From a virus, in IMG/VR virus record IMGVR_UViG_3300030419_007265, positions 1-60,925 of that record: DNA of 60,925 bases, one strand, 5' to 3'. This document shows positions 26,288 to 55,716 of the stretch, in pieces. Below the pieces are notes generated by a model that searched no databases, was not told the origin of the DNA, and was given only the letters and a program-made list of their open reading frames with translations. A program made the position numbers and the translations under genes. Position 1 is the stretch's first letter. Each line of letters starts with the position of its first letter.

Positions 26288-27041
26288 TTATAATTTTATC
26301 GAAGTCTTTTTCTTCAGGCTGATTACTAAAATACCAAAAACTTATTATGGACGCTAGCTTTCCCGCTACTAACTGAAATAAAGAATCCTCAGCTTCGTCT
26401 TTAGAGTAATAATCATCTATTTTCTCTTCGAAAGTCTCCCCTTTAAATAATGGCACAGGTTCTTTTATCTCTAGTTCATCGCATTTATAATGAGTTAAGC
26501 TGGCAATGTACCACAAAATAATTCTATTTTGGGCTTTAGTATCTGCCGTATGGCTAAATAAATTTTGGTAAGAGCCTTCTAGCGTGACAATATCTCTGCG
26601 CGTTATAGCTACCTTAGCTGCTAGTTTATCTATTAGCTCTCTAGTTTGCCGTGGCAGTTTTTTTACATCTCTATGTTTTAAAGTTTTTTGGGTATATTCC
26701 CCCTCCAGCTCCGCTAATTCACCATACAACTCCACTAAACGTTGTGCGTCATTTTCTGAAAGCAACCCTCCTGTATCAGAATATTTCTTCGCAAGCATAG
26801 CTTTAGTTAGAATTCCTTTTTTAACGCAACGGCTCATTTCAATAGAATATTCCATATCAGCCTCTTCAAGTTCGCGTCGAGTAGGGTCTTTTATGATTAT
26901 TTCATATGGAACCTCTTTACTAACTTTCTTGCTTACTTCTACCTCCTCTTCAACTCCGTCTTTATTTTTGCGTTTTTCTTGGGTTTTTTGCTCTATTTTT
27001 TGAGTATCATGAACAGTAAAAGAATATATTTGCTTTAACAT
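26259..27041 (-). CDS. Tail assembly chaperone candidate (first ORF)
   Basis: 260 residues, acidic and helical. Starts MLKQIYSFTVHDTQKI with a charged loop (KRKNKDGVEEEVEVSKKV) and then EVPYEIIIKDPTRRELEEADMEYSIEM, a layout seen in several tail assembly chaperones that resemble a small beta strand set plus helices. First gene of the left-going tail operon, divergent from 27112. A late-type box (GTGTTTATTTAATATT) is present on the minus strand about 20 nt before the start. Probably keeps the tape measure soluble during tail assembly; call rests on position and composition. Confidence 0.5.
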   Translation of the reverse strand: MLKQIYSFTVHDTQKIEQKTQEKRKNKDGVEEEVEVSKKVSKEVPYEIIIKDPTRRELEEADMEYSIEMSRCVKKGILTKAMLAKKYSDTGGLLSENDAQRLVELYGELAELEGEYTQKTLKHRDVKKLPRQTRELIDKLAAKVAITRRDIVTLEGSYQNLFSHTADTKAQNRIILWYIASLTHYKCDELEIKEPVPLFKGETFEEKIDDYYSKDEAEDSLFQLVAGKLASIISFWYFSNQPEEKDFDKIINDIDNPSEE

Positions 27042-27096
27042 AAATATGTAAAAATAATATTAAATAAACACTTTTTTTCCAAAGGTTTTTTAAAAA

Positions 27097-27108
27097 GTGT
27101 ATAGTATA
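27097..27108 (+). promoter_or_regulatory. Late-type box before neck/tube operon
   Basis: GTGTATAGTATA, 3 nt before the ATG at 27112. Confidence 0.55.
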
Positions 27109-27111
27109 AGT

Positions 27112-27564
27112 ATGGCAAGTTTAATTTCTGATAGCGAAAAAAGCACCTTGAACAGCGTCATGGACGACCAACATGACACATTTGCTAGATCTGTTACAAT
27201 TGTGAAAGATCCTATTGAAACAATTTCCACCCAAGACAATGAGTTTAACTCAATTTACGGAAACGCCGGTGCCACGAATCCTATTACTTATACAACGCAA
27301 TCCACAACGATAAAAGCGCGAATACAATATGGCCAAGATTTTTCTGAAGATTATTTTACGGCAGCAAAATCTCCCAATCAAATTAAGGTATATATACCTG
27401 AAGGTTTAGTAAGGATGAAGATAAAAGCAGCCGACCTAACAACAGTTTCAGAGGCTAAAAGAGTTGAATTTGATAATCAAAAATTTTCTATTTACAGTGA
27501 TTTTAGAGGGCACGGTCTTTTTGACTCTCAGTTTTACACTGTAATGCTTAAAAAATTAACCTAA
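27112..27564 (+). CDS. Head-tail connector/stopper candidate
   Basis: 150 residues from the ATG at 27112 (MASLISDSEKST). An in-frame GTG at 27097 is part of a late-type promoter box (GTGTATAGTATA) and is therefore rejected as start. Mixed beta protein with a DDQHDTFARSVTIVKDPIETI start, found in small head-closure/stopper proteins that follow the connector in many phages (family resemblance weak). First of four plus-strand genes; stop overlaps the next ATG by 1 nt. Expected at the head-tail neck. Confidence 0.5.
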   Translation: MASLISDSEKSTLNSVMDDQHDTFARSVTIVKDPIETISTQDNEFNSIYGNAGATNPITYTTQSTTIKARIQYGQDFSEDYFTAAKSPNQIKVYIPEGLVRMKIKAADLTTVSEAKRVEFDNQKFSIYSDFRGHGLFDSQFYTVMLKKLT

Positions 27565-28166
27565 TGCCTACTCGTATATCCAACGCACTAACAAAAAGAA
27601 TAAAGGAGCAAGCTGCTAAGCAGCCTGCTTTTCAAAAAGAAGTAAAAAGGACAATTGAAAAAGAGTTTGCTAACATTTATGATCAATTTTTAAAATCCTT
27701 CAACTCTCATCCTGTTACCTTGGAGATTGAAACAGGGCCGTCCGCTAGTAATATAAGCCGAACTTTAGGGGGAATTGGGAATCTTTACACTTACATTGGA
27801 TTTACTGCGGGGTCTAAGCCTATTAGACCTTTGCGAGAATTACTAGAAAAATACCATATTAGGTATCATAATCTTAGAGGTGTTTTCAGAGCCACTATTG
27901 AAGTTCCAACAAAAGATGATGTATTTAATGCAACTCCAATGCCATGGGCTACCGGTCGTAGCTGGGCACGAGGAATTGAAAGAGGCATTTCGGGACTTGG
28001 ACAATATTTATTTTCCAGCGGCTCTATACCTCAATCAAGGTCCGGAAAAGCTATAGAAGTAAAAGGGAAGATAAGAAGTGGAAAATTCTCTAATGTTAGC
28101 TATATGTCGGCATTGCTCAATGATTATTACAAAGCCATAGAAAAACTGCAAAATAAACAATTCTAA
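27564..28166 (+). CDS. Neck / tail completion protein candidate (HK97 gp10/lambda Z type)
   Basis: 200 residues. Helical, basic N-terminus (ALTKRIKEQAAKQPAFQKEV) followed by beta strands and a C-terminal SRSGKAIEVKGKIRSGKFSN stretch. Length, charge pattern and place (second in a four-gene neck-to-tube operon) fit tail completion proteins of the gp10/Z type. No diagnostic motif seen, so the specific family is uncertain. Overlaps both neighbours by 1 nt, so translation is probably coupled. Confidence 0.45.
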   Translation: MPTRISNALTKRIKEQAAKQPAFQKEVKRTIEKEFANIYDQFLKSFNSHPVTLEIETGPSASNISRTLGGIGNLYTYIGFTAGSKPIRPLRELLEKYHIRYHNLRGVFRATIEVPTKDDVFNATPMPWATGRSWARGIERGISGLGQYLFSSGSIPQSRSGKAIEVKGKIRSGKFSNVSYMSALLNDYYKAIEKLQNKQF

Positions 28167-31167: not shown

Positions 31168-31182
31168 ATATAGTATTTACAC
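31168..31182 (-). promoter_or_regulatory. Late-type box before connector gene
   Basis: GTGTAAATACTATAT directly next to the ATG at 31167. Confidence 0.65.
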
Positions 31183-35150: not shown

Positions 35151-35167
35151 ACATAAAAATGTTACAC
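35151..35167 (-). promoter_or_regulatory. Late-type box before protease-scaffold gene
   Basis: GTGTAACATTTTTATGT, one nt from the ATG at 35149. Confidence 0.65.
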
Positions 35168-35171: not shown

Positions 35172-37220
35172 TTATTTCTCTAGAGAATTTTTTCTGCTAT
35201 GGTGCAAGATAGCAGCGGCATAATCATCTAACTCATGCTCGGCGCTTATGTCTACTATTTCTTTAAGAGGTTGCAAATCACTAAGCTTAGCAGAGTTTTC
35301 TATACATGATTTTGCGGTAGGTAGCCAATCTTTCGGGTCTTTAGCTATAACTACAGATTCACATACTTTTTCGAGAATAGATTTTTGATTCTTATTTAGC
35401 CTTTTCTTTTTAAATACTTTTTTAGCTTCACTCAATAAAGCGTTGTAAAGGTCATTTGTACTATCTACTGTTTGTTTGATAGCGTGCACTGAATATCTTG
35501 TTTCAGCTAACGTTTTAGAGCCTACAGGCCTTCCCGGTCTTCCGGGGCTCTTACCGCGGTTATTTTTTCGCTCTTCGTAGCGACGTCGTTGCTCAAGTAA
35601 TTTTGCTCCCTCTGGATGCCGGATCTCTTCAATTTCTTCCTCTTGATCAAAATCCATCGGCATGGGATTTCCCCCCACTAATGGATTATAAAATCCTTTT
35701 TGCCTATCGTCTACAAACTTTTCTTGAGCTTTTTCTAAAGTTTGAGAGTCGGGGAAAACCCCTGTGTCAATTACCTGCATCCCTTGCTCCGGAGGCAGAA
35801 TCCCTAATTCCATCATACGAGTAATGACCCGCTGCATTTGAGCCTGATCTTTTAAATCAATGGTTTCAAATTTAGCTGTAGGAATATCTCTGAAACCAAA
35901 GTTTTTACATAATTGCCTGATTTCATCTTGCAAAAATTCATTTAAAAAAGTATCGCGAGCTTCTTTTAAGCGCTGAAGAAACATCTGAGCTTTTACTTCT
36001 GTACTGGCAAACTTTTCTTGACTTAAAATAATATTCTGAAGGCCCTCTTTAATATCTTGGTTTACTACATCATACTTTGCGGGACCGATCACCTTATTGA
36101 TGTCAGGTATAACAAATTCTGCTTTTGTTGTATAATCACTTACTAAAATTCTGCCAACGCTTTGATTTTGAAACAATGCTTGCATGGCCCTGATATTACG
36201 GGGATTTATCCCTCCATTATCAGGAGTTGTTCCCATTGTAATAAGGAGGACTACATTCTCAATGGTGCGACAAATAGATTGGTCAATCTTCTTCATCTCC
36301 ATTTTGAAGTTGACATCATCTAAAACCGGAAAAGCAAAAGGAATTGCAAAAGGTTCGTAGTCCTGTTTTTTATAAAAAGAATACCGTAATTTTTCCGGAT
36401 CTAATCGGACTTTAATTCCGTCAACCGCCCAGCTATCACTTTTAATACGTTTTTTAATATTTTCTGGCAGAGCATCGTAAAGCTCTCGGTCTTCCTCAGT
36501 TTTTGGGTCTCGTAATCTTTCTACTTCGTATTCGCTTAATACTTTCGCGTATAAGCCGAACTTGTCAAAAGACGTAGCTCTTTGAGCAACAACATCATAA
36601 GGATTTAATAAAATATAACGAACAGGAATTTTATTGCTCATCATATTTATCCCAAGATTTCTTACTTTTGAAAAATCATCCGCCTTAATCTTGCTTTGTA
36701 AAGTATATAAAAATATATTACCGCTTCGATAGAATTCTCTAAAAAACTGATCCTTTAAGTTCCATATTTTAATTTTCTTAAACCAAGCATTTATAAAATC
36801 CCTAGACTTAGCGCTTCCTCCCTCTAAATAAAGTTTAGAGTTCGCAAAATCAGCCATCGTATCCACCGCATTCCTAACGACAGCAATATTCGCATAAGCT
36901 TTTTGGCACAACTCTATAGCGTCACGAACATTAACTCCATCAATAGAATACTGATAGGGCAACATCCCAGCTCTAATATTAGAGTATCTGTAAAGCATCG
37001 GAGCGACGGCAATATTATTACGCCTTAGCTCGGTGTTAGCTCCCCCTACTGGGGAACGAGAATAAGCTTGTGATTCATAATTATAAAAAGAATCTCCGAT
37101 TAATTGCGGCTCATACTCGCCTTTCGATGACGCCTGCATAATATTTTCTATGGGCTGATTCTTCTTTTGAATTTTTTCCCAATAATCAGACCGTTTCGTA
37201 TATTTTCTTTTTGCTGCCAT
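35172..37220 (-). CDS. Portal protein
   Basis: 682 residues. Portal hallmarks: an N-terminal region leading to YANIAVVRNAVDTMADFANS, wing/stem segment with PVRYILLNPYDVVAQ, and the helical crown (QDIKEGLQNIILSQEKFASTEV; DTFLNEFLQDEIRQLC; LKDQAQMQRVITRMMELG). Place between terminase and protease confirms the call. C-terminal ~150 residues are charged and extra relative to short portals, with a KKNNRGKSPGRPGRPVGSKT AT-hook-like tract. Late-type box GTGTAAACTATTTTAAC abuts the ATG. Forms the dodecameric DNA channel at one capsid vertex. Confidence 0.9.
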   Translation of the reverse strand: MAAKRKYTKRSDYWEKIQKKNQPIENIMQASSKGEYEPQLIGDSFYNYESQAYSRSPVGGANTELRRNNIAVAPMLYRYSNIRAGMLPYQYSIDGVNVRDAIELCQKAYANIAVVRNAVDTMADFANSKLYLEGGSAKSRDFINAWFKKIKIWNLKDQFFREFYRSGNIFLYTLQSKIKADDFSKVRNLGINMMSNKIPVRYILLNPYDVVAQRATSFDKFGLYAKVLSEYEVERLRDPKTEEDRELYDALPENIKKRIKSDSWAVDGIKVRLDPEKLRYSFYKKQDYEPFAIPFAFPVLDDVNFKMEMKKIDQSICRTIENVVLLITMGTTPDNGGINPRNIRAMQALFQNQSVGRILVSDYTTKAEFVIPDINKVIGPAKYDVVNQDIKEGLQNIILSQEKFASTEVKAQMFLQRLKEARDTFLNEFLQDEIRQLCKNFGFRDIPTAKFETIDLKDQAQMQRVITRMMELGILPPEQGMQVIDTGVFPDSQTLEKAQEKFVDDRQKGFYNPLVGGNPMPMDFDQEEEIEEIRHPEGAKLLEQRRRYEERKNNRGKSPGRPGRPVGSKTLAETRYSVHAIKQTVDSTNDLYNALLSEAKKVFKKKRLNKNQKSILEKVCESVVIAKDPKDWLPTAKSCIENSAKLSDLQPLKEIVDISAEHELDDYAAAILHHSRKNSLEK

Positions 37221-37237
37221 GTTAAAATAGTTTACAC
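37221..37237 (-). promoter_or_regulatory. Late-type box before portal gene
   Basis: GTGTAAACTATTTTAAC ending at the ATG (37220). Confidence 0.65.
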
Positions 37238-37269
37238 CTAAAGTTATTAAAGTGACTTTTAAAGTTACT

Positions 37270-39135
37270 TTACATTATAAAAAGCGGTTCGAAAGTTTCT
37301 ACAACATCTTCTGCGGTTTGTGATTGTGAATCTAAATACACTTTTGCCATCCAATTTGCCAAAACTAATGCTGAATAAGAATCCTTTCGTGCCTTGTCCG
37401 GTCCTGTTTGCCGTCTAAGATTAGGCGGCAAATCAAATGTTTGCGTACCTTGAGCTGTAGTGGTTATTTGCACTAAAGCGCATTCATTTTTGGTTAATTC
37501 GATCATATCTGACTGATGCTCAATAAAATCAATCATTTTGGCCGCAGCCGTTTGCTTTGACTCCTCTGTGGTACGGAGAAACTTAAGGCTATCTATAGGA
37601 ATGCTTTGGCGCTTCTGTTTTGTGTAAAAATCATCAATTGCTCTACTGGCAAAATATATTCGGCGATGATCAAAATTCGCTTGAAGCAACTCGTTGGCCT
37701 GCCTGATCCAATTGCTAGTTGGTTTCCTTAATATAACATGATGATAGTTTTCTCTGTTATATTGTCTTTTGTAAGATTTTAAATCTTTTTGATATTCCTC
37801 AGGTTTATCGAGGCCTACCTCAATGGTTTGTAATTTAATTTTTTTCTGTTTAAAAATTTCGCTTTCATTACAGGCTTGCATAAATTGCACTCCTCCATTG
37901 TAGTCTCCGCATATAGCTACTATGTTAAAATTCTCTAAACAAAAAAGAAAATAATTAATATGATGTTTAAGGGAAGTTCCCGATAATGCATAACTATGAA
38001 CTAATGTTACAGTATGGTTTTCTGGGTTTAATTTAAGTATTTGAATAGCAAAATCATCAGAACTTTCAGTTTGCGACCATGAAGGGTCAAAAGCTAAAAT
38101 GTATTCGGCATCCGGATCTCCTTTCACCTCAACGCAAGGAAGGTCTCCATCGGGGATAGTGCATAAAGCCATCTTGCTAGTCTTAAAATAACCAGAACTA
38201 TCATCAGTAAAAATAGCCCCAAACTCTCTTTCAAATTGAGATTGACTCATTGTTGCTTTAGCTTGATTAATTAAATTTTCATCATAAAGCTGTTTAGGCG
38301 CACAATCATAACTATACTGCATGATACATCTAGAAGCGTTGTCTTTTTCAGCGTCTAAAGTAATTAAATGCTCGAATTGGGTATACAATTTATACAAGTA
38401 TTCAAATTTATAAGAAGCTGAAGAAAGGGCTATTAGTTTATTATTAGGCCATACATAACGCTCTTCTTCGCTCATTTTATTTTCTTCAATAAGCCGTGTC
38501 TCCAATTTAAATAAATCGTCCCGTTGAGTAGGGTTTTCTACTACCGACAAAAATGGCACTATAACTTCGTTATAAATTCTCTCCGGCATTAACAAGAACT
38601 CATCAATAATAATTCTATGAAAACGAAAACCACGCAGCTTCTCTCCATCACCTAAAGGCAAAGCCCTAATTCTACTTGCGCCAATCTCCATTAACCATTC
38701 ATCATTGCTTTTTGAAGTTTTTGTAATGCATTGTCGAAAAAATGCTGCATCAGGTTTATTAGCTATATCTTCAATTTTCTTAAAGATCATTTTTGCTTGT
38801 CTAAAAGATTTAGATAATATTCCAATCTCGACCCCTTGGTTAAGCACCGCATCTAGAGCAGCAAACACACCTGTTGTGAATGACTTGGACATACCACGAG
38901 ACCATACTCCTAAAAAATAATCAGTTTCAAACATCGACTTAATTGCCATATGCTGAAAAGGAAATAACTTCACTCCTAAAATTAGATCAGTAGTAAAAGT
39001 TATATTGTTCCTAAGAAACTCATACAAAGCTAATTTGGCTTCTTTCTCTTCAAGAAAACCGTCAAGCTTTAAAAGCTCTTCGTTATTTCTTAAATAAGGG
39101 GCGCGCCTATGTTGTCTGCCTTTATTCCAGCTCAT
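37270..39135 (-). CDS. Terminase large subunit
   Basis: 621 residues. ATPase: Walker A WSRGMSKSFTTG (residues ~78-89, with Ser in place of the usual Gly before Lys), Walker B RIIIDEF (174-180). RNase H-like nuclease: AFDPSW near residue 345, a second acid in ICGDYNGGVQFM near 410, and a third in KDSYSALVLANW near 590. This is the DNA packaging motor and cutter. Its start overlaps the stop of the zinc-finger/ERCC4 nuclease gene upstream by 14 nt, linking the two in translation. Confidence 0.93.
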   Translation of the reverse strand: MSWNKGRQHRRAPYLRNNEELLKLDGFLEEKEAKLALYEFLRNNITFTTDLILGVKLFPFQHMAIKSMFETDYFLGVWSRGMSKSFTTGVFAALDAVLNQGVEIGILSKSFRQAKMIFKKIEDIANKPDAAFFRQCITKTSKSNDEWLMEIGASRIRALPLGDGEKLRGFRFHRIIIDEFLLMPERIYNEVIVPFLSVVENPTQRDDLFKLETRLIEENKMSEEERYVWPNNKLIALSSASYKFEYLYKLYTQFEHLITLDAEKDNASRCIMQYSYDCAPKQLYDENLINQAKATMSQSQFEREFGAIFTDDSSGYFKTSKMALCTIPDGDLPCVEVKGDPDAEYILAFDPSWSQTESSDDFAIQILKLNPENHTVTLVHSYALSGTSLKHHINYFLFCLENFNIVAICGDYNGGVQFMQACNESEIFKQKKIKLQTIEVGLDKPEEYQKDLKSYKRQYNRENYHHVILRKPTSNWIRQANELLQANFDHRRIYFASRAIDDFYTKQKRQSIPIDSLKFLRTTEESKQTAAAKMIDFIEHQSDMIELTKNECALVQITTTAQGTQTFDLPPNLRRQTGPDKARKDSYSALVLANWMAKVYLDSQSQTAEDVVETFEPLFIM

Positions 39136-40069
39136 TTCGTTCTAAAAAATATTGAATGTCTGTTTGCCAAATTTCCTTACCATAGATTAATAATCTAGGT
39201 ATTATGGCAGATGCTTTTTCCCTAGTTTCTACAAATATAAATTGACAGCATCGAGCATACTCATGAGAAATTTCTTTGATTTGTTTTAATACAAAATCAA
39301 TATTAGTGCGCCGATTGAATATTTTATTTTCTTTAATTATTTTTTGTATACTCGACTCCACAACAACAAAAAGATAAGAATCCATTTCTTTAGCTCGTTC
39401 AATCTCTCGTTTAAATCTATCTACATTATGCTTATTTAAGGTTCCCTGCAGGTCACTTCCAGATTTACGGTCTACAAAAGTATAACTATAATGATCGCCT
39501 AAAGTAGTATAGTCTCCTATATCTAATTTCAGGATTTCTGTATCGCAATCAAACTTTAATGGTTTTTGCTCCCTTGTGTCTATGGCAATACATAAATCTT
39601 CAGGAATTTTCTTCGTAAAAAAATCTTTAGATAAATTTTTGTTATACAAAGGTTCGCAACCAATTTCTGCACACGCTGCATTATAGCTGCCAAAAAGTTT
39701 TCTATAAATTTCAATAGAAGGAATGAAAGAGTTCGCTGTCTCTAAATGGAAAGGGCCATATTTTCTTTTTTTCTTAGAGTGCCGCTTTTGAAGTAAAGAA
39801 GTGATATATTCTTTTACCTCTTCTTGCGGGTTTTCTTTGCACCATTTGATTAACTGTTGCTTTGTCGAAAAGTCTCTTTCAAAATATTCGTCATATCTTT
39901 TAAACGGGAGCGGATCGCCAGTTAACTTATTTGTGCGTGGAAAGTATTTTGTATAATAGCCTGCTAAATTTAAACCATGTTGTTTAATGTGCTTATGTAA
40001 AGAAGCCCTGCTTGTAAATTCTTTTTTACACTCCGCGCATGAAAAAACCTTGGAGTTTGTGACCTCCAC
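39122..40069 (-). CDS. C2H2 zinc finger fused to ERCC4-type nuclease
   Basis: 315 residues. N-terminus has a perfect C2H2 finger: Cys11-x2-Cys14-x12-His27-x3-His31 (FSCAECKKEF...LHKHIKQH). Residues ~160-260 form an ERCC4/XPF-type nuclease: IDTREQKPLKF, then LDIGDYTTLG, then FVDRKSGSDLQGTL, matching the D-x-R-E / GDY / (E/D)RK catalytic pattern. The middle is helical, with SFIPSIEIYRKLFGSYNAAC resembling a DNA-binding homing-endonuclease-associated repeat. It sits between the TerS candidate and TerL with overlapping ends. Possible roles: packaging-site recognition or cutting, or branch removal before packaging. Confidence 0.85.
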   Translation of the reverse strand: MEVTNSKVFSCAECKKEFTSRASLHKHIKQHGLNLAGYYTKYFPRTNKLTGDPLPFKRYDEYFERDFSTKQQLIKWCKENPQEEVKEYITSLLQKRHSKKKRKYGPFHLETANSFIPSIEIYRKLFGSYNAACAEIGCEPLYNKNLSKDFFTKKIPEDLCIAIDTREQKPLKFDCDTEILKLDIGDYTTLGDHYSYTFVDRKSGSDLQGTLNKHNVDRFKREIERAKEMDSYLFVVVESSIQKIIKENKIFNRRTNIDFVLKQIKEISHEYARCCQFIFVETREKASAIIPRLLIYGKEIWQTDIQYFLERNELE

Positions 40070-41139
40070 TAGATGGCGTCCTCCTTACTAATGCCTAATA
40101 CACGGGCTTTCCAGTCAGGCATTTTTTCTATTTCATCCGCCTCCTGTTGAACTGCTTGCTTTTGCATATCGGCCATTTTTATCATTAGTTTTCGCTCTTC
40201 TTCATCTTGAAATAGTTGAACTAAAGAAATAACAGAGGCGTTTCTTTGCTGTTGATTAGCTATGCGTTTCGCCCGCTCTCCATTGAGCTTTGCTAGCATT
40301 TTATCAATTCTATTTATACATTGATTATACTCCTCAGCTTTGGTTTTAAGCATTTCTGTTAACCTCATAGTTAAATCATTTTGCCCCTCCGTGTCATCAA
40401 ACATCAAATTTAGTTTTTGTTTTTGCTGTTCTATTTCTTTAAGATTAACATAGTCCATGCATACATTCACATATAAATTTAATTCATCTGAAGTCAGGTC
40501 AGGTTTATCCCATGTGCTTCGAATATATTCAGATTCAAAAAGATCCCTGCTTTGCCGGGTTAGGTAAGAACTAATAACTTGCACAAACCGTGGGGCGTTT
40601 AAATAAGTAATAAGCTTTTCAATACATTTTTTATCTTGTAAATTTATTTTTTTTAGGTCAAACTCTTTTGAAGTAACTTTGTTCAACCTTTTCATTGCAG
40701 TAGATAAAATGTGAGGAGGAGTATATTTTTCTCCAACCGCATCATCACGCAAATTCACAGTTGAAGGAAATTCTTTAGTAATATAATCGCAGAGAGAAAT
40801 AAACTTGTCGCTTTCCGTAAAGCCTTTACTTTCGGAATCTTTAGGCCACAGTAGTTGACCTATTTCCTTTTTGGTCATTTCGCCGCAATAATGCTGCTTT
40901 ACAAAAGACTTCTCTTCGTCTTGTAAAAAATATTTAGTAGCTCTTTTTTTAACCTTTGTTCGATAACTCAATCCTTTCTCTACCCAAAATTTTCTTAGCG
41001 CACGCCCTCTTACCGTACTGCCTTTTTCATTGGTGTCTTTAAATAATTGCTTTGTAGCTTCATTAAGATCACCGTCCAGCTCATCAAATAGCTTTAAGCT
41101 AGCCCCTTTTTCTTCTGCGGTTAGTACGTACTCTTTCAT
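40069..41139 (-). CDS. HTH and coiled-coil protein, small terminase candidate
   Basis: 356 residues. Two helix-turn-helix-like segments at the N-terminus (LTAEEKGASLKLFDELDGDL; LQDEEKSFVKQHYCGEMTKK...IGQLLWP) and a long coiled-coil C-terminal half (about 215-340). DNA-binding head plus oligomerising coil, two genes upstream of TerL, is the layout of a small terminase subunit. No specific family match seen. Ends overlap both neighbours (1 nt and 4 nt), so it is translated as part of the terminase operon. Confidence 0.5.
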   Translation of the reverse strand: MKEYVLTAEEKGASLKLFDELDGDLNEATKQLFKDTNEKGSTVRGRALRKFWVEKGLSYRTKVKKRATKYFLQDEEKSFVKQHYCGEMTKKEIGQLLWPKDSESKGFTESDKFISLCDYITKEFPSTVNLRDDAVGEKYTPPHILSTAMKRLNKVTSKEFDLKKINLQDKKCIEKLITYLNAPRFVQVISSYLTRQSRDLFESEYIRSTWDKPDLTSDELNLYVNVCMDYVNLKEIEQQKQKLNLMFDDTEGQNDLTMRLTEMLKTKAEEYNQCINRIDKMLAKLNGERAKRIANQQQRNASVISLVQLFQDEEERKLMIKMADMQKQAVQQEADEIEKMPDWKARVLGISKEDAI

Positions 41140-41858
41140 TCGAAAAATATATCAGTTTCATCACAAATCTTTTTAGCAATTTTTTTGTAGAAATTCTTTA
41201 AATTTTTTATCTGCTTATAGCCGGCTTTTCGCCCTTTTTCATTACTTTTGTAACCTAACACTCTAGCGACCGTTTCTTCATCGATGTGATCTATAAATAG
41301 CATTTTATATATAATATAATGCCTATCGTTTAAATATTGACGCATTGATAGATGCATCGAAACTACAGCCTCTCCAATATTATAATGATCTTCTGGGACG
41401 GTAAATCTATCAAATTCATTTGTTTCCAGAGAAACCGGTATTTTTATGTCATATGCTTGTTTACGTGTTTTTTCCCATTTAGCGTAGTCGGGACACTCGT
41501 TAGACTGAAGTCCTGTCTTAGTAAAAGAACACAAATTAGAAACTTGGCCGCTCCCTTGTTCTTTCGATTGATTGTGCTTGCAACTTATGCAGGGCCTTGC
41601 AAAATTAGAATAATTATTGCGTAGAATATTCTTAAGTTGATTGGAGATAATTTTATTGACCCACGGTTCAATAGGTCGAACTTGATCCCATTGCTCCCAT
41701 TTTTTATAAATATGAGCCCTAATAATCTGGGATACATCATCAAAGTCAAGCCATGCGATTGCATGAAGGTGCCACTTATAATAGCGCTTCCTTATTTCAT
41801 TATCGATAGTTTCTGACTTGTCCTCGTAGGTATGTTTGTTATTCTCCTCCACCACCAA
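41136..41858 (-). CDS. Phage sigma-70-family factor with zinc-binding insert
   Basis: 240 residues. Region 2: WLDFDDVSQIIRAHIYKKWE...RPIEPWVNKIISNQLKNILR (~36-80), the typical sigma region 2 with its D(F/L)xDVxQ and W-hxxIxxNxhxxxhR pattern. Region 4: HYIIYKMLFIDHIDEETVARVLG then a Lys-rich recognition helix (~178-235). Between them an insert with CISCKHNQ, NLCS and NECPD supplies four cysteines for a zinc site. Lacks regions 1 and 3, like ECF or T4 gp55-type late sigmas. Likely directs host RNA polymerase to the GTGTAAATATT-type boxes found before most virion genes. Confidence 0.75.
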   Translation of the reverse strand: MVVEENNKHTYEDKSETIDNEIRKRYYKWHLHAIAWLDFDDVSQIIRAHIYKKWEQWDQVRPIEPWVNKIISNQLKNILRNNYSNFARPCISCKHNQSKEQGSGQVSNLCSFTKTGLQSNECPDYAKWEKTRKQAYDIKIPVSLETNEFDRFTVPEDHYNIGEAVVSMHLSMRQYLNDRHYIIYKMLFIDHIDEETVARVLGYKSNEKGRKAGYKQIKNLKNFYKKIAKKICDETDIFFE

Positions 41859-42979: not shown

Positions 42980-42991
42980 TAAATATTACAC
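42980..42991 (-). promoter_or_regulatory. Late-type box before phoH
   Basis: GTGTAATATTTA next to the ATG; divergent from 43051. Confidence 0.65.
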
Positions 42992-43050: not shown

Positions 43051-43064
43051 GTGTAAAGTATTTT
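43051..43064 (+). promoter_or_regulatory. Late-type box before TM-coil gene
   Basis: GTGTAAAGTATTTT, 8 nt before ATG 43073. Confidence 0.65.
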
Positions 43065-44200: not shown

Positions 44201-44212
44201 AATATATTACAC
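44201..44212 (-). promoter_or_regulatory. Late-type box before 43851-44198
   Basis: GTGTAATATATT, 2 nt from the ATG. Confidence 0.6.
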
Positions 44213-44718: not shown

Positions 44719-45240
44719 TTATTCTCCCGGATTGTTTCCGTCAATTACCTCGTCTCTTTTGTTTTTAAATTCATTGCGAATTTCTTTGATTCGATTTCTA
44801 ACCTCTTCCCTATTGCCTTTCATGCTTTCAAACCAATCTTTACGAAGTCCTTTTAATTGCTCCCTTAAGCCTTCTTTATCTTCATCAGAGACATCTTTAA
44901 GTTGCTTATGAAGATCTTTTACTTGTGAATGATGCTCCTTAGCGGCAGCAGTAAAAGCGTCTCTGAGTTCTTTAACTTTTTCATCATCTCTAACCAGCTT
45001 GCCAAAAGCTCGTCCTTTATGATTTATTTTGTGACCCTTCTTTTTAGAATCCTTATGATGTTTTTTACGCTTTTCAAACGCAGCCTTTAAACGCTCTTTG
45101 ATTTTTTCTCTATCAATTTTTTTCTCAGGACGTGGCCTCTCCGGCTTTTCCTTATCTTTTTTAGGGTGAGCTTCTACAGTTGTTAATGAAGCTGCCAAAA
45201 CAGCTATCAAGCCAATTTTAGTTAAATATTTCATAATCAT
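44719..45240 (-). CDS. Exported highly charged helical protein
   Basis: 173 residues from ATG 45240 (MIMKYLTKIGLIAVLAASLTTVEA; a start at 45234 is also possible). Signal peptide, then an almost purely charged helical protein (KPERPRPEKKIDREKIKERL; KDLHKQLKDVSDEDKEGLRE). The pattern recalls periplasmic Spy/CpxP-like or Verrucomicrobial exported coils, but no motif was found. Same operon as the EF-hand gene (4 nt spacing). Late-type box GTGTATATATTAT abuts the start. Both proteins would enter the periplasm late in infection. Confidence 0.65.
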   Translation of the reverse strand: MIMKYLTKIGLIAVLAASLTTVEAHPKKDKEKPERPRPEKKIDREKIKERLKAAFEKRKKHHKDSKKKGHKINHKGRAFGKLVRDDEKVKELRDAFTAAAKEHHSQVKDLHKQLKDVSDEDKEGLREQLKGLRKDWFESMKGNREEVRNRIKEIRNEFKNKRDEVIDGNNPGE

Positions 45241-45253
45241 ATAATATATACAC
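45241..45253 (-). promoter_or_regulatory. Late-type box before exported helical protein
   Basis: GTGTATATATTAT ending at ATG 45240. Confidence 0.6.
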
Positions 45254-45370: not shown

Positions 45371-45384
45371 GTGTAAAACATATT
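45371..45384 (+). promoter_or_regulatory. Late-type box before lipoprotein operon
   Basis: GTGTAAAACATATT ending at the GTG start 45385. Confidence 0.6.
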
Positions 45385-46514: not shown

Positions 46515-46675
46515 ACCTGTAGCTTCTTAATCCTTTTATTATATTTTTCTGTGAGATGTAATATCTCTGTTACAATTTGATTGAAATCTTCATATTGCAA
46601 ACGGCTACTGCAATACATTAATTGAGATACTAGTTGAGCAGTTAACGCGGAAGTATCAGATTGTTTTCTATTCAT
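46511..46675 (-). CDS. Small hypothetical protein overlapping the 237-aa gene's stop
   Basis: 54 residues (MNRKQSDTSALTAQLVSQLM...YNKRIKKLQV), below usual ORF length cut-offs. Its ATG overlaps the stop codon of 46675-47388 (TAATG), a typical coupled start, and it fills the only gap in this stretch. Helical, no domain recognised. Confidence 0.6.
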   Translation of the reverse strand: MNRKQSDTSALTAQLVSQLMYCSSRLQYEDFNQIVTEILHLTEKYNKRIKKLQV

Positions 46676-47388
46676 TAAGCTGACGGGTATTCAGGAGGAT
46701 CTTCGTGGATCTCAGTGTCTTTTGTCTCTTGTTTGGAAGTGTCTTCTTCGGGGTAATGATTATAAAAAAAGTAAGGGCTATTTCCAAAAGATCTATCGAT
46801 ATCTTCTGAAGTCATCTCTGTATCATATATCTTCACTTTAGGCGGGTTATCCATAGAATAAGGAACAATGAAATCAGGGTTATGCCAGCGAAGTAAATTA
46901 TTAGGAGGTATGGCGTAATTTCCATCGTCCATTTCAAGAAAGTGATAACACTTTGAATCTTGATCATTAGCGTATCCAATATTGAGCTCATTAAGGTCCC
47001 CCTCATAATCATCAATAGTAAATACATACTTACCAGAACGCCATACTCTGTCGCGGCAGAATACGTCCACCCGACGATTTTGCAGAAAGCCGAATGTCGT
47101 AACTGCGATATCATTATCCTGACAATCCCACGTCTGTAATAAAGATAATCTTCTTTGTTCATCGTTACTCAACGGATCAAAGTCCTCTTTATGGCAAAAA
47201 GCGGATATAGGCATCTGCCAAAAAACAGCCCCAAAGCACGATTGAAAATGAAAGTGCATTGGCCGATTAATCATAGATTTTACACCAAAAATATATCCTT
47301 CGGTTAATCCTTCATCATTATTCCCAAAAATATATTTATTCCGAATAAAACACCCAATATAAGGTGTGTTAGCATTTAGTTGAGCCAT
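46675..47388 (-). CDS. Conserved-looking hypothetical protein next to carbamoyltransferase
   Basis: 237 residues, aromatic and Cys-rich N-terminal two thirds (MHFHFQSCFGAVFWQMPISA; LLQTWDCQDNDIAVTTFGFL), acidic disordered tail. I recall similar proteins beside carbamoyltransferase genes in marine phages but cannot name a family. TATAGTATAAG lies just before the start. Encoded 9 nt after the carbamoyltransferase stop on the same strand, so a joint role is likely. Confidence 0.55.
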   Translation of the reverse strand: MAQLNANTPYIGCFIRNKYIFGNNDEGLTEGYIFGVKSMINRPMHFHFQSCFGAVFWQMPISAFCHKEDFDPLSNDEQRRLSLLQTWDCQDNDIAVTTFGFLQNRRVDVFCRDRVWRSGKYVFTIDDYEGDLNELNIGYANDQDSKCYHFLEMDDGNYAIPPNNLLRWHNPDFIVPYSMDNPPKVKIYDTEMTSEDIDRSFGNSPYFFYNHYPEEDTSKQETKDTEIHEDPPEYPSA

Positions 47389-47397: not shown

Positions 47398-49098
47398 CTA
47401 TTTCCAAACCAGAATATCTTCTAATATTAAATAATCTAAATTAGATCGCAAAAATGTTTTAATGGCATCTTCAGCGCTATCTACCAACGGTTCCCCTTTT
47501 AAATTAAAGCTTGTGTTCAAAAAGACAGGGGTACCAGACAATTGCTCAAAATGACCTAAAGCATTATAAATTATTTTATTTTGTTCAGCATTAACAGATT
47601 GAGGTCTACATGTCCCATCAATATGAGTAACCGCAGGTATTCTCTTTTTCCATTCGTCCCTAACAGGCGCGGCTATTAGCATATATGGAGAAGGGTGCTT
47701 TAAATCCACTATTGTATTAAAATTATCTTCCTTTATAACAGGTGCTAATGGACGCCACAATTCTCTGTCTTTAATTTTGTTTACTTTATCTAAATTCGAT
47801 GCAATGGTAGGATTAGCTAAAATACTCCGGTGGCAAAGTGCCCGCGGCCCTATTTCGGCTTTACCTGCACAATAGCCTACAATTTTATTATTATGAATTA
47901 AAGTTGCTAACGTGCTCGCTACATCTACTTGTTTGTAACGAAGCTGAGAATATTGTTTGATAACCTCAACAGCACTCTTGCTCACAAAACTCGACCCCCA
48001 ATAAGCTGAGGGAAAATTTATTGCAGGGATATGCTTTTTCCATCCAGACTGCTCACTTGAACATAAAATAGCTGCACCTAAAGCCGTACCGCTATCATGA
48101 GCCGCAGGAGGTATAAATAAGTTATTTACAAAAGGCTCTTTGATTAATTGTCCATTTGCTGAACAATTTAAAGCTGTACCTCCTGACAAAGCAAAATCGC
48201 CACATCCGGTTTTTGAATAAAGAAGTGTAGCTGCTTCTAGCAATACCTCTTCTAAATACTGCTGTGCGGTTTTGGCTAAGTTAACGCTTTCCGTACATAG
48301 AATGTTTTCATGAATTTTTTGCTTGACTCCTTGCAGTTCTAACTTTGTAAGAAATGTTTCGACTTTGTTTTGATCAATTTGCCATAATCCACCTCGATTA
48401 ACAAAAATTATATCTCTAGGTAATAGGCTTTCATCGCATTGGCCGTAACACGCCAGACCCATTGTTTTCCCTTCTTGCTCATGAGGCTTAAAACCTAAAA
48501 ACTTAGTAATGTCTTCATAGAAACGACCTATCGAGCCTAAGTAAGTAAAGTACGCTTCTTCTCGCATCTTTCCATTTGAAAAATATCCTGCGCGTCCAGC
48601 GGTTGCCCCTCCATTCCCATCCATGGTAATATAATTACATTCTTTAAAAGGCGAACAACTTATGGAGCTAACGGCGTGACATTCGTGGTGATCATACCAA
48701 TGTAAATTTTGTATGGGAAATCCATATCTTATTGCCTCTTTAATAAGTTGAGCTTCGAGGTCGATATCCGCTAATTCGTAAAGTGCTGCGCCGAACTCGT
48801 CCGACTCCCATTCTAACTTATCCCACTCAAGATCTATGTTCTGCGCATAATCAGCGCCATGACATTTTTCCCATGTGTTTCGCGCTGTATCCCATCCAAT
48901 CGCTATCCTTCCAACGTCTTCTTTTTTAATTCCCGCAGCTTCTAAACAATAGTCAATTGAATGACGCGGAAAAGTTTTAAACGATTGCTTTATTCGGCTA
49001 AACCTCTCTTCTTCTGCAAAAGCAATGATTTCGTTATTTTTAAATAAGCATGCGGCTTGATTATAAGCCCCTAAAGTAGTTATCCCTAATATGTACAT
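47398..49098 (-). CDS. NodU/CmcH/TobZ-family carbamoyltransferase
   Basis: 566 residues, full family length. N-terminal YrdC-related/kinase-like part: MYILGITTLGAYNQAACLF, DHHECHAVSSI (metal-binding His set), DGNGGATAGRAG. C-terminal part: ALSGGTALNCSANGQL, PPAAHDSGTALGAA, the AEIGPRALCHRSILANP motif, ELWRPLAPVIKED and a SGTPVFLNTSFNLKGEP block. Family members transfer a carbamoyl group from carbamoyl phosphate to hydroxyl groups on sugars or antibiotics. In some phages homologues modify hydroxymethyl pyrimidines in DNA. The substrate here is open; nearby sugar-transfer genes favour a glycan. Confidence 0.93.
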   Translation of the reverse strand: MYILGITTLGAYNQAACLFKNNEIIAFAEEERFSRIKQSFKTFPRHSIDYCLEAAGIKKEDVGRIAIGWDTARNTWEKCHGADYAQNIDLEWDKLEWESDEFGAALYELADIDLEAQLIKEAIRYGFPIQNLHWYDHHECHAVSSISCSPFKECNYITMDGNGGATAGRAGYFSNGKMREEAYFTYLGSIGRFYEDITKFLGFKPHEQEGKTMGLACYGQCDESLLPRDIIFVNRGGLWQIDQNKVETFLTKLELQGVKQKIHENILCTESVNLAKTAQQYLEEVLLEAATLLYSKTGCGDFALSGGTALNCSANGQLIKEPFVNNLFIPPAAHDSGTALGAAILCSSEQSGWKKHIPAINFPSAYWGSSFVSKSAVEVIKQYSQLRYKQVDVASTLATLIHNNKIVGYCAGKAEIGPRALCHRSILANPTIASNLDKVNKIKDRELWRPLAPVIKEDNFNTIVDLKHPSPYMLIAAPVRDEWKKRIPAVTHIDGTCRPQSVNAEQNKIIYNALGHFEQLSGTPVFLNTSFNLKGEPLVDSAEDAIKTFLRSNLDYLILEDILVWK

Positions 49099-49985: not shown

Positions 49986-50005
49986 AAAAAAGAGTGTAAT
50001 TTTAC

Positions 50006-50868: not shown

Positions 50869-51234
50869 ATGTCTTTAAGTGAATGTCGTTTTTGTGATCT
50901 AAGTCTCCACTCTATTCTGGAAACAAATGAACACGCAGCTTCTTTTTTAGACGCTTATCCTGTAACTAAATATCACAGTTTATTTATTCCTCGTCGACAC
51001 GTTTTGACTTATTTTGATTTAAATGATAAAGAACGTGAAAGTATTCATGAGCTTCTAATCATTCAGCGTGAAAATATTCTAAAGCAAGACCCAACTGTTA
51101 AAGGTTTTAATATTGGATGGAACTGTGGTAAGGAAGCTGGGCAAACAGTTTTTCATGCTCATTGTCATTTAATTCCACGGAGAGATGGTGATGATTATAA
51201 TGATAAAAGACGAAAAAATCAGCCATGGGTATAG
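50869..51234 (+). CDS. HIT-family nucleotide hydrolase/transferase
   Basis: 121 residues. HIT motif FHAHCHLIPRR with His96-x-His98-x-His100; the N-terminus has CRFC (C6/C9) and CDLSLHS, a variant of the zinc-binding C-x2-C of HIT proteins, and FLDAYPVTKYHSLFIPRRHV. HIT proteins cleave or transfer nucleotides on phosphate esters such as Ap4A. Follows the terminator, so starts a new unit. Could tune alarmone-type dinucleotides in the infected cell. Confidence 0.9.
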   Translation: MSLSECRFCDLSLHSILETNEHAASFLDAYPVTKYHSLFIPRRHVLTYFDLNDKERESIHELLIIQRENILKQDPTVKGFNIGWNCGKEAGQTVFHAHCHLIPRRDGDDYNDKRRKNQPWV

Positions 51235-51253: not shown

Positions 51254-51270
51254 GTGTATATATAATTAAT
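51254..51270 (+). promoter_or_regulatory. Late-type box before 51271-52083
   Basis: GTGTATATATAATTAAT ending at the ATG. Confidence 0.6.
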
Positions 51271-52802: not shown

Positions 52803-53024
52803 ATGTCAGTTCATCTTAAAACAATGTTAGAATCCGCTAAGCGCGCGGCTTCCGCAGCTCAGGATGCAGCCAATGATTGCCAGAAGGCCGTAGAAGCAAG
52901 TCGCCGTGAAGCTGAAGAAATTTCCTCTTTAGCTAATGAAGCCTCCACCCAAGTAGTTCAAGCTCAAGAACGAGTAAAAACAATTGAAGCAAAAATAACG
53001 GCTACTTCAAACTCAGACGGTTGA
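52803..53024 (+). CDS. Small coiled-coil protein
   Basis: 73 residues, entirely helical heptads (LESAKRAASAAQDAANDCQK...AQERVKTIEAKI). No TM or signal. Its 3' end overlaps the oppositely oriented fucosyltransferase gene by 12 nt. Confidence 0.6.
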   Translation: MSVHLKTMLESAKRAASAAQDAANDCQKAVEASRREAEEISSLANEASTQVVQAQERVKTIEAKITATSNSDG

Positions 53025-54059
53025 AAGAACAGTATCCTTAAAGAATTTAAGGATAGCGTCAGGCTTAACCGATTCGGGAATAGTATTGTCAACAAAAAGA
53101 GGTTCATTTATATAGGATTGGTATCTCTCTTCATTCTGGTCAATTTGTTTTATATCTTCGATCATTTCGTCGATCGATTCATAATCAATTAGATTGATAA
53201 ATGCTTTTGTGTTGAAGTCGTTTGACACACTGGAGTGCCCCCAGTAAATAGGTACTGCTCCCGCGATTTTAGCATGAAAAAGTTTTTCGGTATGGTAGCC
53301 TTCCCGAATTTTATTTTCAAAACAAAAAATAAACCTATAGTCTTTAGAGATTTCTAATTTTCTTTTTTCCCACGGATAGAACCCGTTACCAAAATAATCT
53401 CCATATCCATCTACAGTTTTATAAGCGTTTAATTTTTCATACGCTTCTATACGATTACCTGTTGAATTATTAAAAAAACTTACACAAAATTTAGTTTTAG
53501 TAGTGTTTTTGTATTGATTATCATTTATATCAGATTCGCCTATCAAAAGAGCTGGCTCACCATAAGAAACATCATACCCTTGATATTGAGCATTATATGT
53601 AGCCTTGTTAAACCAATCAATCTGATACGCCCAATAGGGAAGCCTTTTGTGACGGGTATCGCTGGTTACATCATGAGTTAAAGCAAAGTCGCACTTTGAG
53701 TAATAATATTTTACTCTATCGCTATCTTCACTATCTCCAGTTAAATCACTTAGAGGATCACTAACATATGTTGTTTGGGACCCTGCAGTTGTACGAATGG
53801 AAACAGAAGGAGGATAAGAAGTCTCTTGATCTAACTTAGCAGGGATACCTTCCATTGTATAAAAAACTCTTTTTGTGATTTTGTCTTTATACTTAAGTCT
53901 TTCTTGATTTTGATAAGGGTCGCATGATAAAAATAATATATCCGGATTTTCTTCGTCCAGTTCTACATCGTAAGCAGTTTTCAGTAGATGATAAAAGTAA
54001 TTGTTATCATAATAAAACTGAGGCCAAAAATCTGCAAACCATAATTTTAATTTTGACAT
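53013..54059 (-). CDS. GT10-family fucosyltransferase
   Basis: 348 residues. Family GT10 (alpha-1,3/1,4-fucosyltransferase) signature: KFCVSFFNNSTGNRIEAYEK, then YRFIFCFENKIREGYHTEK and HAKIAGAVPIYWG, the donor (GDP-fucose) binding motif. N-terminal acceptor part with DILFLSCDPY. Soluble, no TM. With the carbamoyltransferase and 49167-49985 it makes a scattered sugar-modification set that may alter host LPS or virion glycans. Confidence 0.9.
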   Translation of the reverse strand: MSKLKLWFADFWPQFYYDNNYFYHLLKTAYDVELDEENPDILFLSCDPYQNQERLKYKDKITKRVFYTMEGIPAKLDQETSYPPSVSIRTTAGSQTTYVSDPLSDLTGDSEDSDRVKYYYSKCDFALTHDVTSDTRHKRLPYWAYQIDWFNKATYNAQYQGYDVSYGEPALLIGESDINDNQYKNTTKTKFCVSFFNNSTGNRIEAYEKLNAYKTVDGYGDYFGNGFYPWEKRKLEISKDYRFIFCFENKIREGYHTEKLFHAKIAGAVPIYWGHSSVSNDFNTKAFINLIDYESIDEMIEDIKQIDQNEERYQSYINEPLFVDNTIPESVKPDAILKFFKDTVLSTV

Positions 54060-54060
54060 T

Positions 54061-54321
54061 TTATTCTTTTTCTAGTTTGTTTATATATCTATTTAAATCG
54101 CAGCACTCTTCAAGTAAATGTATAGCGGTAGCCCTCCAAAATTTACCAACGTCACGCAAAGCTTCATTTTGGTCTCTGAGCTGTTCTAAATTAACTTCAA
54201 TGCCAGTAACATGCTTAAGAGTATTGTCTATGAGAGGACAGGTGTCAGCCGGTATTTCAGGGCAATCCTCTTTTAGTTCTTTGTATCCTTTAGCTGGAAA
54301 ATTCATTCTCTTCGTTTCCAA
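54061..54321 (-). CDS. Small hypothetical protein
   Basis: 86 residues, METKRMNFPAKGYKELKEDC..., with a C-terminal helix holding CCDLNRYINKLEKE. No domain recognised. Its start overlaps the HTH gene's end by 19 nt and its stop is 1 nt before the fucosyltransferase start. Confidence 0.6.
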   Translation of the reverse strand: METKRMNFPAKGYKELKEDCPEIPADTCPLIDNTLKHVTGIEVNLEQLRDQNEALRDVGKFWRATAIHLLEECCDLNRYINKLEKE

Positions 54322-54650
54322 TACTTATGTTCGTAATCAGGTGTGTTTTCTTGAGCAATTGCTTCCTTCCATACTGCAGATGAATTTTTATCAATTAACC
54401 CATGATTACACGAATGAGTATTAGGTGATGGTTCCCATCGTCTAGCTAACGCATACATTTGCTGCTCTTCATAATGTAGCATGTGACACAAAAAAGAAAA
54501 CTTCCTCAAGATGCTTCTTTTTGGGGGAGGATTAATTCCTTTTTCTATTTTACGCCACATTGATTTTGGAATTCCCAGTAGTTTGCACAGCTTGTCAGTA
54601 TTCTTAAAATATTTTTGCCTATATTCTTTTATATAGGTATGAAACTTCAT
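54303..54650 (-). CDS. XRE-like HTH DNA-binding protein
   Basis: 115 residues. Residues ~15-55 form an XRE-type HTH (LCKLLGIPKSMWRKIEKGIN with NPPPKRSILRKFSFLCHML). C-terminal part aromatic, unknown. Likely a small regulator; a late-type box GTGTAATTTACTTGAA overlaps its upstream region. Confidence 0.7.
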   Translation of the reverse strand: MKFHTYIKEYRQKYFKNTDKLCKLLGIPKSMWRKIEKGINPPPKRSILRKFSFLCHMLHYEEQQMYALARRWEPSPNTHSCNHGLIDKNSSAVWKEAIAQENTPDYEHKYWKRRE

Positions 54651-54666
54651 TTCAAGTAAATTACAC
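54651..54666 (-). promoter_or_regulatory. Late-type box before HTH gene
   Basis: GTGTAATTTACTTGAA ending at ATG 54650. Confidence 0.6.
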
Positions 54667-54905
54667 TACTTTTTAATTTTCACTGGTTCGTGCTGTCTGG
54701 TTGTGTAAATATGGTGCAATTCATCATATGCTTCATTATAATTCCATCTTGGGCATTTAAAAGACATAGTTCTGTGCTTGGGATAATCTTCTTGCCATAC
54801 CCATGTTCCAGAACAGCCACAAAAGGCTATCGCTAAAGAAACGTACAATAAAGTATGAATAAGCCTATGAATGGCGCTGTTGCTATGATTAAATATTCTT
54901 TCCAT
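54666..54905 (-). CDS. Small lipoprotein nested in a TM-protein gene (o-spanin-like)
   Basis: 79 residues, MERIFNHSNSAIHRLIHTLLYVSLAIAFCGCSG with lipobox AIAFC/GC. The first 72 nt lie inside the TM gene 54833-54988 in a different frame, the classical Rz/Rz1 nesting. Mature part short with W and H residues. Last gene of the five-gene cassette 54666-55672. Confidence 0.65.
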   Translation of the reverse strand: MERIFNHSNSAIHRLIHTLLYVSLAIAFCGCSGTWVWQEDYPKHRTMSFKCPRWNYNEAYDELHHIYTTRQHEPVKIKK

Positions 54906-54988
54906 TGGGATTTAAATTCATATCGTGCGATATTATACAGGCATGCAAGGTTTTCCTTAAAAGTAAGTTTTTTAACGAGTCTTGCCAC
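54833..54988 (-). CDS. Small single-TM protein (GTG start), below ORF cut-off
   Basis: 51 residues: VARLVKKLTFKENLACLYNI... then a TM segment YLIIATAPFIGLFILYCTFL to the stop. The GTG overlaps the stop of the upstream lipoprotein gene (TAGTG), the mark of coupled translation, and the downstream lipoprotein nests inside it. C-terminal tail-anchored; candidate holin or i-spanin partner, although very short for an i-spanin. Confidence 0.6.
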   Translation of the reverse strand: MARLVKKLTFKENLACLYNIARYEFKSQWKEYLIIATAPFIGLFILYCTFL

Positions 54989-55290
54989 TATTCCCTCTCT
55001 CTTCTGGATGGTTGCCTACTTGGGACACCTTTACTTATAGAACGGCTTGTAGGGGGCGTCTCAGGCCTACTAGGAGGCATAATCTGACGAGGGGAGGGTA
55101 AAGGTTTTGATTCATGTTTACGGGATCGCTTTTTATGATGGCGATGATGGTGATGATCGTAATAATGATGATCGTAATGTATATACCGTACTTCGTGCGT
55201 ATGATAGTGTCTAGTGTCTACAGATTCCCAACCACACGACTCACATCCTGTATTTAAAATTATAATTAAGGTTAATATTAAAATTCTCAT
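54988..55290 (-). CDS. Histidine-rich lipoprotein
   Basis: 100 residues. MRILILTLIIILNTGCESCG with lipobox LNTGC. Mature part has a His/Tyr-rich stretch (15 His in about 25 residues around YIHYDHHYYDHHHHRHHKKR), then a Pro-rich tail (KPLPSPRQIMPPSRPETPPT), the composition of Rz1-type o-spanins. The His cluster could bind metal. Start overlaps the previous stop as ATGA. Confidence 0.7.
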   Translation of the reverse strand: MRILILTLIIILNTGCESCGWESVDTRHYHTHEVRYIHYDHHYYDHHHHRHHKKRSRKHESKPLPSPRQIMPPSRPETPPTSRSISKGVPSRQPSRRERE

Positions 55291-55454
55291 CTTACTCCTG
55301 ATCCTTGTCGATAAATAGGCGCATCGGAACTATTTTTTTTGATAACTTTTTTTGAAGGTTGACTTAACAGAGAAAAACCAAGTATAACGAGCGCAGCAAT
55401 TAAAATAGAAGCAATACCCCACTTATCATTGAATATAGAATTTTGTAACTTCAC
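55287..55454 (-). CDS. Small single-TM protein (GTG start), below ORF cut-off
   Basis: 55 residues, VKLQNSIFNDKWGIASILIA... with TM WGIASILIAALVILGFSLL (~12-31) and a charged C-tail (KKVIKKNSSDAPIYRQGSGV). Both ends overlap neighbours by 4 nt (GTGA with the 73-aa gene, ATGA with the His-rich lipoprotein), which strongly supports its reality. Topology class III holin-like or i-spanin-like. Confidence 0.7.
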   Translation of the reverse strand: MKLQNSIFNDKWGIASILIAALVILGFSLLSQPSKKVIKKNSSDAPIYRQGSGVR

Positions 55455-55672
55455 TTTTTAATTTTCTTTCTTATTTTTTTAAAACCTTGTATTATTAAAT
55501 CTTTAATAATAAATGGCGATAAAGCAATGCACCCTAACACATAAAAAGCTTTGTCTCCAATTCCTAGAGTTTTCACTTTTTTTTCCTTCTTAATCATTTC
55601 ATTTATAGCTTTTAGTGTTTCTTTATCTGCATTCCATCTTTTATCTTCCCAAGACCACACGGTAATCTTCAT
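55451..55672 (-). CDS. Small membrane protein, head of the TM/lipoprotein cassette
   Basis: 73 residues, MKITVWSWEDKRWNADKETL..., one TM (KAFYVLGCIALSPFIIKDLI, ~43-62) and a basic tail (FKKIRKKIKK). First gene of the cassette; a late-type box GTGTAATATTTTCATA lies 28 nt upstream. Holin-like size and shape. Confidence 0.6.
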   Translation of the reverse strand: MKITVWSWEDKRWNADKETLKAINEMIKKEKKVKTLGIGDKAFYVLGCIALSPFIIKDLIIQGFKKIRKKIKK

Positions 55673-55700
55673 TATTAAATTTAAGTAGCTGTTTAGTCTA

Positions 55701-55716
55701 TATGAAAATATTACAC
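55701..55716 (-). promoter_or_regulatory. Late-type box before TM/lipoprotein cassette
   Basis: GTGTAATATTTTCATA, 28 nt before the ATG at 55672, so this transcript would carry a short leader. Confidence 0.55.

Follow-up and report, generated by a model that had tools for sequence, protein, structure and literature searches.

A GTGTA box close to start codons of a tailed phage, probably a promoter element read by the phage's own sigma factor

Genes of the window and its GTGTA boxes

The window analysed here is the whole of IMG/VR virus record IMGVR_UViG_3300030419_007265, a stretch of 60,925 nt with a GC content of 39%. Its genes identify it as a tailed phage: they encode a tape measure protein, a tail-tip J-like protein, a tail assembly protein, a large terminase subunit, PhoH and a probable portal (gene 37220), the last being a 21% match to the portal of Bacillus phage Slash. 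Slash and its kin provide the sole portal matches, and the match to Slash TerL is distant; Slash encodes an ECF sigma factor some genes upstream of its endonuclease–TerL–portal genes, and in the comparison with Slash gene order was similar between positions 35172-41858 of the window and L269:8237-16825. A large protein on the minus strand (2-4582), probably a fibre, contains long collagen-like Gly-rich repeats and runs off the contig end. Accessory genes encode a phrog_3704 'ferredoxin' (46675-47388), a carbamoyltransferase (47398-49098), a HIT protein (50869-51234), a GT10 fucosyltransferase-like protein (53013-54059) and a C-type lectin domain (55854-56618).

IMG/VR contains hundreds of relatives of the window's sigma-like protein and terminase; at least 589 were found, and the lineage comprises at least several hundred contigs. 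A search of a collection of cultured phages (tblastn, two queries) returned no relative of the sigma-like protein, and for the terminase distant matches alone (~23-28% identity). Genome matches fall in one bacterium and in metagenome bins that belong to three different groups, where binning errors are possible.

An initial annotation of this DNA proposed that more than a dozen genes, on both strands, carry a box with an 11-nt consensus close to the start codon. A same-strand GTGTA does indeed lie 7-17 nt upstream of 13 of the 14 starts that it listed; the remaining start, 55672, has its box 39 nt away, not adjoining the start (Table 1). The consensus, on the other hand, was over-specified: the exact 11-mer GTGTAAATATT occurs nowhere in the window, and with two mismatches allowed it is weakly enriched (56 occurrences against 36 expected). 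The invariant part is GTGTA, and this is followed by five to six A/T.

Table 1. Positions of GTGTA boxes and associated features in the window
Feature	Position	Strand	Remark
GTGTA box, gene 8594 (tail assembly protein, phrog_32)	8607..8611	-	predicted leader 3 nt
GTGTA box, gene 25261 (tape measure protein)	25279..25283	-	predicted leader 8 nt
GTGTA box, gene 27112 (heads + strand operon)	27097..27101	+	predicted leader 1 nt
GTGTA box, gene 31167	31178..31182	-	predicted leader 1 nt
GTGTA box, gene 35149	35163..35167	-	predicted leader 4 nt; kept in 64/71 orthologues
GTGTA box, gene 37220 (probable portal)	37233..37237	-	predicted leader 3 nt; kept in 64/64 orthologues
Terminase large subunit (TerL)	37270..39135	-	last gene of sigma operon; operon-internal, boxless (0/103 orthologues)
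ECF-type sigma factor, proposed reader of the box	41136..41858	-	regions 2 and 4 predicted, four-Cys insert between them
GTGTA box, gene 42979 (PhoH operon head)	42987..42991	-	predicted leader ~1 nt; kept in 54/66 orthologues
GTGTA box, gene 43073 (divergent from PhoH)	43051..43055	+	predicted leader 8 nt; kept in 15/15 orthologues
GTGTA box, gene 44198	44208..44212	-	predicted leader 0 nt
GTGTA box, gene 45240	45249..45253	-	gap 8, or 14 to in-frame ATG at 45234
GTGTA box, gene 45385 (GTG start)	45371..45375	+	predicted leader 0 nt
GTGTA, gene 50050	49994..49998	+	51 nt before gene; TTGACA-17-CATAAT promoter in between
GTGTA box, gene 51271	51254..51258	+	predicted leader 3 nt
GTGTA box, gene 54650	54662..54666	-	predicted leader 2 nt
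GTGTA box, gene 55672	55712..55716	-	outlier: 39 nt before gene; predicted leader ~30 nt
Early-type sigma70 promoter TTGACT-16-TATACT	57137..57177	+	ATG 10 nt away; several of this type at 56.9-59.8 kb

Across the window as a whole, 13 of the 62 genes have a GTGTA separated from the start by 7-18 nt. A null model in which the gene map was rotated gave an expectation of 0.43 and a maximum of 4, with none of 2000 rotations reaching 13; a Markov-1 model of the AT-rich upstream sequence gave 0.38. Among all 1024 5-mers GTGTA ranks first upstream of window genes. Two of the 13 starts (27112 and 45240) are choices of the initial annotation rather than starts of the longest open reading frame, and leaving them out reduces the count to 11; with purely mechanical ORF calls GTGTA still ranks first (11 against 0.9). 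Orientation is equally regular, in that all 15 intergenic copies of GTGTA in the window are directed toward a downstream gene on the same strand, the copy at 49994 being 51 nt off its gene. Some 50 of the 62 genes lack a box, which is what operon-internal and early genes would be expected to show. The AT-richness of upstream regions and the weak enrichment of the full 11-mer could suggest an artefact of composition; the Markov-1 expectation and the conservation of the box among orthologues refute this reading, whose probability we regard as negligible. The observation itself is confirmed.

The box at 42991 heads an operon in the order PhoH, Zn-ribbon, sigma, unknown, ERCC4 nuclease, TerL. Relatives align at the second ATG of PhoH (42976), so that this is probably the true start, with a gap of 10 rather than 7 nt.

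Conservation, spacing and sequence context of the box

Across 140 related loci, no other 5-mer upstream of open reading frames comes close to GTGTA in strength (335 occurrences against 22). Divided by sigma clade, it is the first 5-mer in six clades and the second in a seventh, which has four loci; GTGTA does not come first in two minor clades, one of 13 loci with longer leaders and one consisting of a single locus. The box is kept at orthologous operon heads (counts in Table 1) down to a protein identity of 31-47%, and is nearly absent before operon-internal genes (TerL, 0/103; 31709, 0/50; 32892, 0/55; sigma, 3/101). Loci L141-L149 seemed to have lost the box, but this was rejected: these are short contigs covering mostly operon interiors, and PhoH or portal boxes are present where they are covered. 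In three genomes, intergenic copies of GTGTA with no same-strand start within 60 nt account for 5/14 (G001), 5/20 (G003) and 7/14 (G008). As controls we chose AT-rich phages that share PhoH or terminase with the window but lack this sigma; the GTGTA signal was unremarkable in all of them (S-RIM44, ICP1, Rheinheimera barba, Slash and phiEco32).

Distances between box and start codon were quantified over 178 non-redundant boxes. Only five boxes lie less than 9 nt from the ATG; from 9 nt on, the successive counts are 55, 34, 22, 15, 12, 15 and 9. The distribution therefore breaks off sharply on its left side at 9 nt, and other motifs passed through the same procedure produced no such edge; in this group the box usually stands about nine to fourteen nt ahead of the start codon of an operon-leading gene. 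Furthermore, the position to which a gap of 9 corresponds, index 14 counted from the first G, carries an A in 56-62% of boxes, and this is also the case where the ATG is further downstream. Together, the edge at 9 nt and the preference for A point to a transcription start that precedes the AUG by 0-9 nt. Most simply, transcription would begin at index 14 and the AUG could lie on this base or after it, but not ahead of it; for a start 6-8 bp past the element, these two signals are statistical evidence.

On this basis leaders shorter than 10 nt are very likely. Across the clade about one box in three has a predicted leader of exactly 0 nt, and most have one of 0-9 nt; at the 13 boxes of the window predictions range from 0 to 8 nt, and in clade 5 they peak at 0-1 nt. 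The initial annotation had predicted leaderless mRNA. The sequences support very short or missing leaders, but a length of exactly zero is predicted for about a third only, and these transcripts are more accurately described as probably 'leaderless or nearly so'. Nor does any of the 13 boxed genes of the window have a match to the Shine-Dalgarno sequence, in agreement with the earlier claim; over a larger set, 1.8% of 164 box genes have such a match, compared to 18% of other genes.

A spacing so close and so regular, coupled with a missing Shine-Dalgarno sequence, is also what one might expect if the box were a signal for translation initiation, or an mRNA 5'-end signal, and not a promoter element. 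Against this, the spacing varies from 9 to 18 nt with an edge on one side only, and operon-internal genes of the same phages are almost never boxed. In one sub-clade (L212 and relatives) the distance from this box to the ATG is 20-60 nt, and an SD-like AAGGA lies near the start, which argues that the box is a promoter element and not a translation signal. We consider a translation signal highly unlikely, and are strongly confident that the GTGTA box is a promoter element.

Upstream of the 178 boxes we found no sequence motif at -35 beyond A/T tracts, as had been claimed for the boxes of the window; trimers at -18 to -20 look like residual orthology. The AAA/TTT tracts peak at approximately -6, -15 and -25 from the first G. 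Their phasing of ~10 bp has a spectral power of 1.2-1.3 against a maximum of 0.19 in shuffled sequence, a value that residual relatedness (<60% identity) may inflate. Just upstream of the portal box (37237-37280 in the window; portal orthologues in L009, L042, L058 and L060) ACTTTT units are repeated ~10-11 bp apart, a feature seen in many relatives; a possible explanation is an activator site or curved DNA. Such repeats above the portal promoter, and the likelihood of extra factors at some promoters, would suit an alternative in which the box is a site where a phage activator or repressor acts on ordinary promoters. The fixed orientation, the one-sided distance to the start codon and the lack of an accompanying -35/-10 pair make this very unlikely.

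The genes at 56.9-59.8 kb are preceded by promoters of a different kind, sigma70-type sequences of the form TTGACT-16-TGTGATATACT in which the ATG follows 9-10 nt after the -10 box. This placement implies that genes on the early side likewise have very short leaders. The two promoter classes divide the genome between them. Five near-identical copies of the sigma70 type (..TGTGATATACT or close, 9-10 nt, GTTATGAGRGA) occur between 56922 and 59770, heading small genes whose products begin MR(D/E).

If the GTGTA box were a variant extended -10 element, with GTG right before a TAWWWT hexamer, then host sigma70 would suffice to read it and the phage sigma would have no role. Index 3-8 does read T A W W W T (T at 0.52-0.64 at index 8), which is -10-like, and the predicted start fits. 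However, it is GTGTA that is invariant, the later bases are merely A/T-rich, and a -35 is absent; the same genome possesses textbook sigma70 promoters of different appearance at other genes, and the AT-rich control phages have no GTGTA signal. We judge recognition by host sigma70 to be unlikely. Very probably, the box serves as a promoter for a sigma factor that the virus itself encodes.

A candidate sigma factor within the PhoH-to-TerL operon

The presence of a phage sigma-like gene at 41136-41858, put forward in the initial annotation, was borne out by family-level comparison and structure prediction. The window member itself gives a weak match to Pfam Sigma70 region 2 (20.1 bits, below the cut-off of 24), but Sigma70_r2 is matched in 18/18 aligned members of the family (best 1.9e-6) and Sigma70_r4_2 in two. 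The predicted structure (pLDDT 72.6, pTM 0.36) is ECF-like: PDB entries listed by Foldseek are almost wholly sigma factors, with ECF sigma H first and E-values of 0.008 and above, and a sequence search of the PDB gives weak ECF matches only (E 0.4-0.7). Region 2 of the model superposes on region 2 of RpoE, an ECF sigma, at 2.5 A, and region 4 on that of SigL and sigma E at 2.8-2.9 A, with moderate model confidence. The predicted two-domain fold, with regions 2 and 4, is thus like that of bacterial ECF sigma factors (sigma H, sigma E, SigW). Unlike these, the phage protein has a four-Cys insert between the domains, and its putative promoters show upstream A/T tracts only in place of a GGAAC-kind -35; its region 4 is predicted even though we detected no -35 sequence.

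Each of the ten long records that we searched carries one copy of the sigma gene. A T7-type RNA polymerase was found in none of the ten, with T7 itself as a working positive control, and was excluded as reader of the box. That this sigma reads the box is likely, given the co-occurrence of the two and the precedent of phiEco32; box and sigma belong to one phage lineage and could be linked by descent only. The sigma gene lies inside the PhoH-to-TerL operon, headed by a conserved box, and this arrangement makes autoregulation likely.

Relation to known systems and a proposed mechanism

T4 late promoters, which the initial annotation offered as the nearest comparison, consist of a box TATAAATA and depend on gp55, gp33 and gp45; gp55 is not known to have a region 4. 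The likeness lies in a single box, no -35 and a phage sigma. The box of the window is GTGTA plus A/T and not TATAAATA, its distance to the start codon is much shorter, and a region 4 is predicted for the sigma; box core and geometry are closer to phiEco32 gp36, which displaces T4 as the nearest parallel. Poxvirus late promoters (TAAATG) likewise place a promoter element on the start codon, but polymerase and virus are unrelated, and the GTGTA box excludes the ATG.

In the middle/late promoters of phiEco32 gp36 (Kuravirus; PMC8948821, PMC4331800) a phage sigma redirects host RNA polymerase, as we infer here, to a single element with no -35. That element is tAATGTAtA, with transcription starting 6-8 bp downstream (PMC8948821), equivalent to about index 12-15 in our boxes. 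The core TGTA is common to both (aaGTGTAwa here), while the preceding base is A in phiEco32 and G here. Leaders of ~25-45 nt follow the phiEco32 boxes, with an AAGGAG-like sequence before the ATG, unlike the boxes near start codons described above. Moreover, gp36 is reported without region 4 (PMC8948821), which is predicted in the window sigma. Membership of the gp36 family by sequence was rejected, as hhalign of the A1 sigma profile against phiEco32 gp36 gave no meaningful alignment and no similarity was detectable. The gp36 promoters are nevertheless the closest known system in mechanism, differing in sigma sequence and in placement relative to the start codon. In phage 7-11, gp47 late promoters are bipartite, GTAAtg-(16)-aCTA (PMC8948821). 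As would be the case here, a phage sigma with host core RNA polymerase directs late genes; unlike in 7-11, we found no second sequence element.

We propose that host RNA polymerase carrying the phage ECF-type sigma recognises GTGTA and the A/T run, region 2 reading the box as a single -10-like element; the A/T tracts phased at ~10 bp may aid binding by alpha-CTD or sigma region 4. Transcription would begin at an A located ~14 nt from the first G, either that of the AUG or one 1-9 nt before it, and the resulting mRNAs would be translated without Shine-Dalgarno pairing. The boxed genes would form one phage gene class, probably middle/late. Expression of the sigma would first depend on sigma70, after which the box of its own operon would provide positive autoregulation. 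We assign this explanation as a whole – a GTGTA + A/T promoter class, host RNA polymerase with a phage ECF-type sigma, and near-leaderless mRNAs – a probability of about 0.8. That the class is strictly late is favored with less assurance, on account of its gene content (portal, tape measure, tail, TerL operon) and the contrast with the sigma70-type promoters of the 56.9-59.8 kb arm. More speculatively, a widespread uncultured phage lineage may combine a dedicated sigma with transcription starts at start codons, a leaderless middle/late programme, a region-4 sigma using phased A/T tracts without a -35 and, perhaps throughout, leader-independent ribosome entry; this larger picture is tentative.

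We found no open-access paper that describes GTGTA as a phage sigma promoter, nor one that joins phage sigma, late promoter and leaderless. The present data offer a candidate sigma–promoter pair from a lineage with no sigma relative in the phage collection searched, and in these genomes the box makes it possible to predict operons and start codons with sequence as the sole input. Should the leaderless reading be right, these phages would be unusual in expressing a gene class from leaderless mRNAs. Behind the same box, the clades form a series of leaders of 0 nt, 3-5 nt and 20-60 nt, natural material for the study of leader gain and loss.

Within the 68-74% sigma clade, the PhoH box is preceded by AGTCAA, which is TTGACT on the opposite strand (L142:1340-1400, L143:7477-7534, L104:1296-1352). 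This sequence may serve as -35 for the divergent gene, whose early promoter would then adjoin the box.
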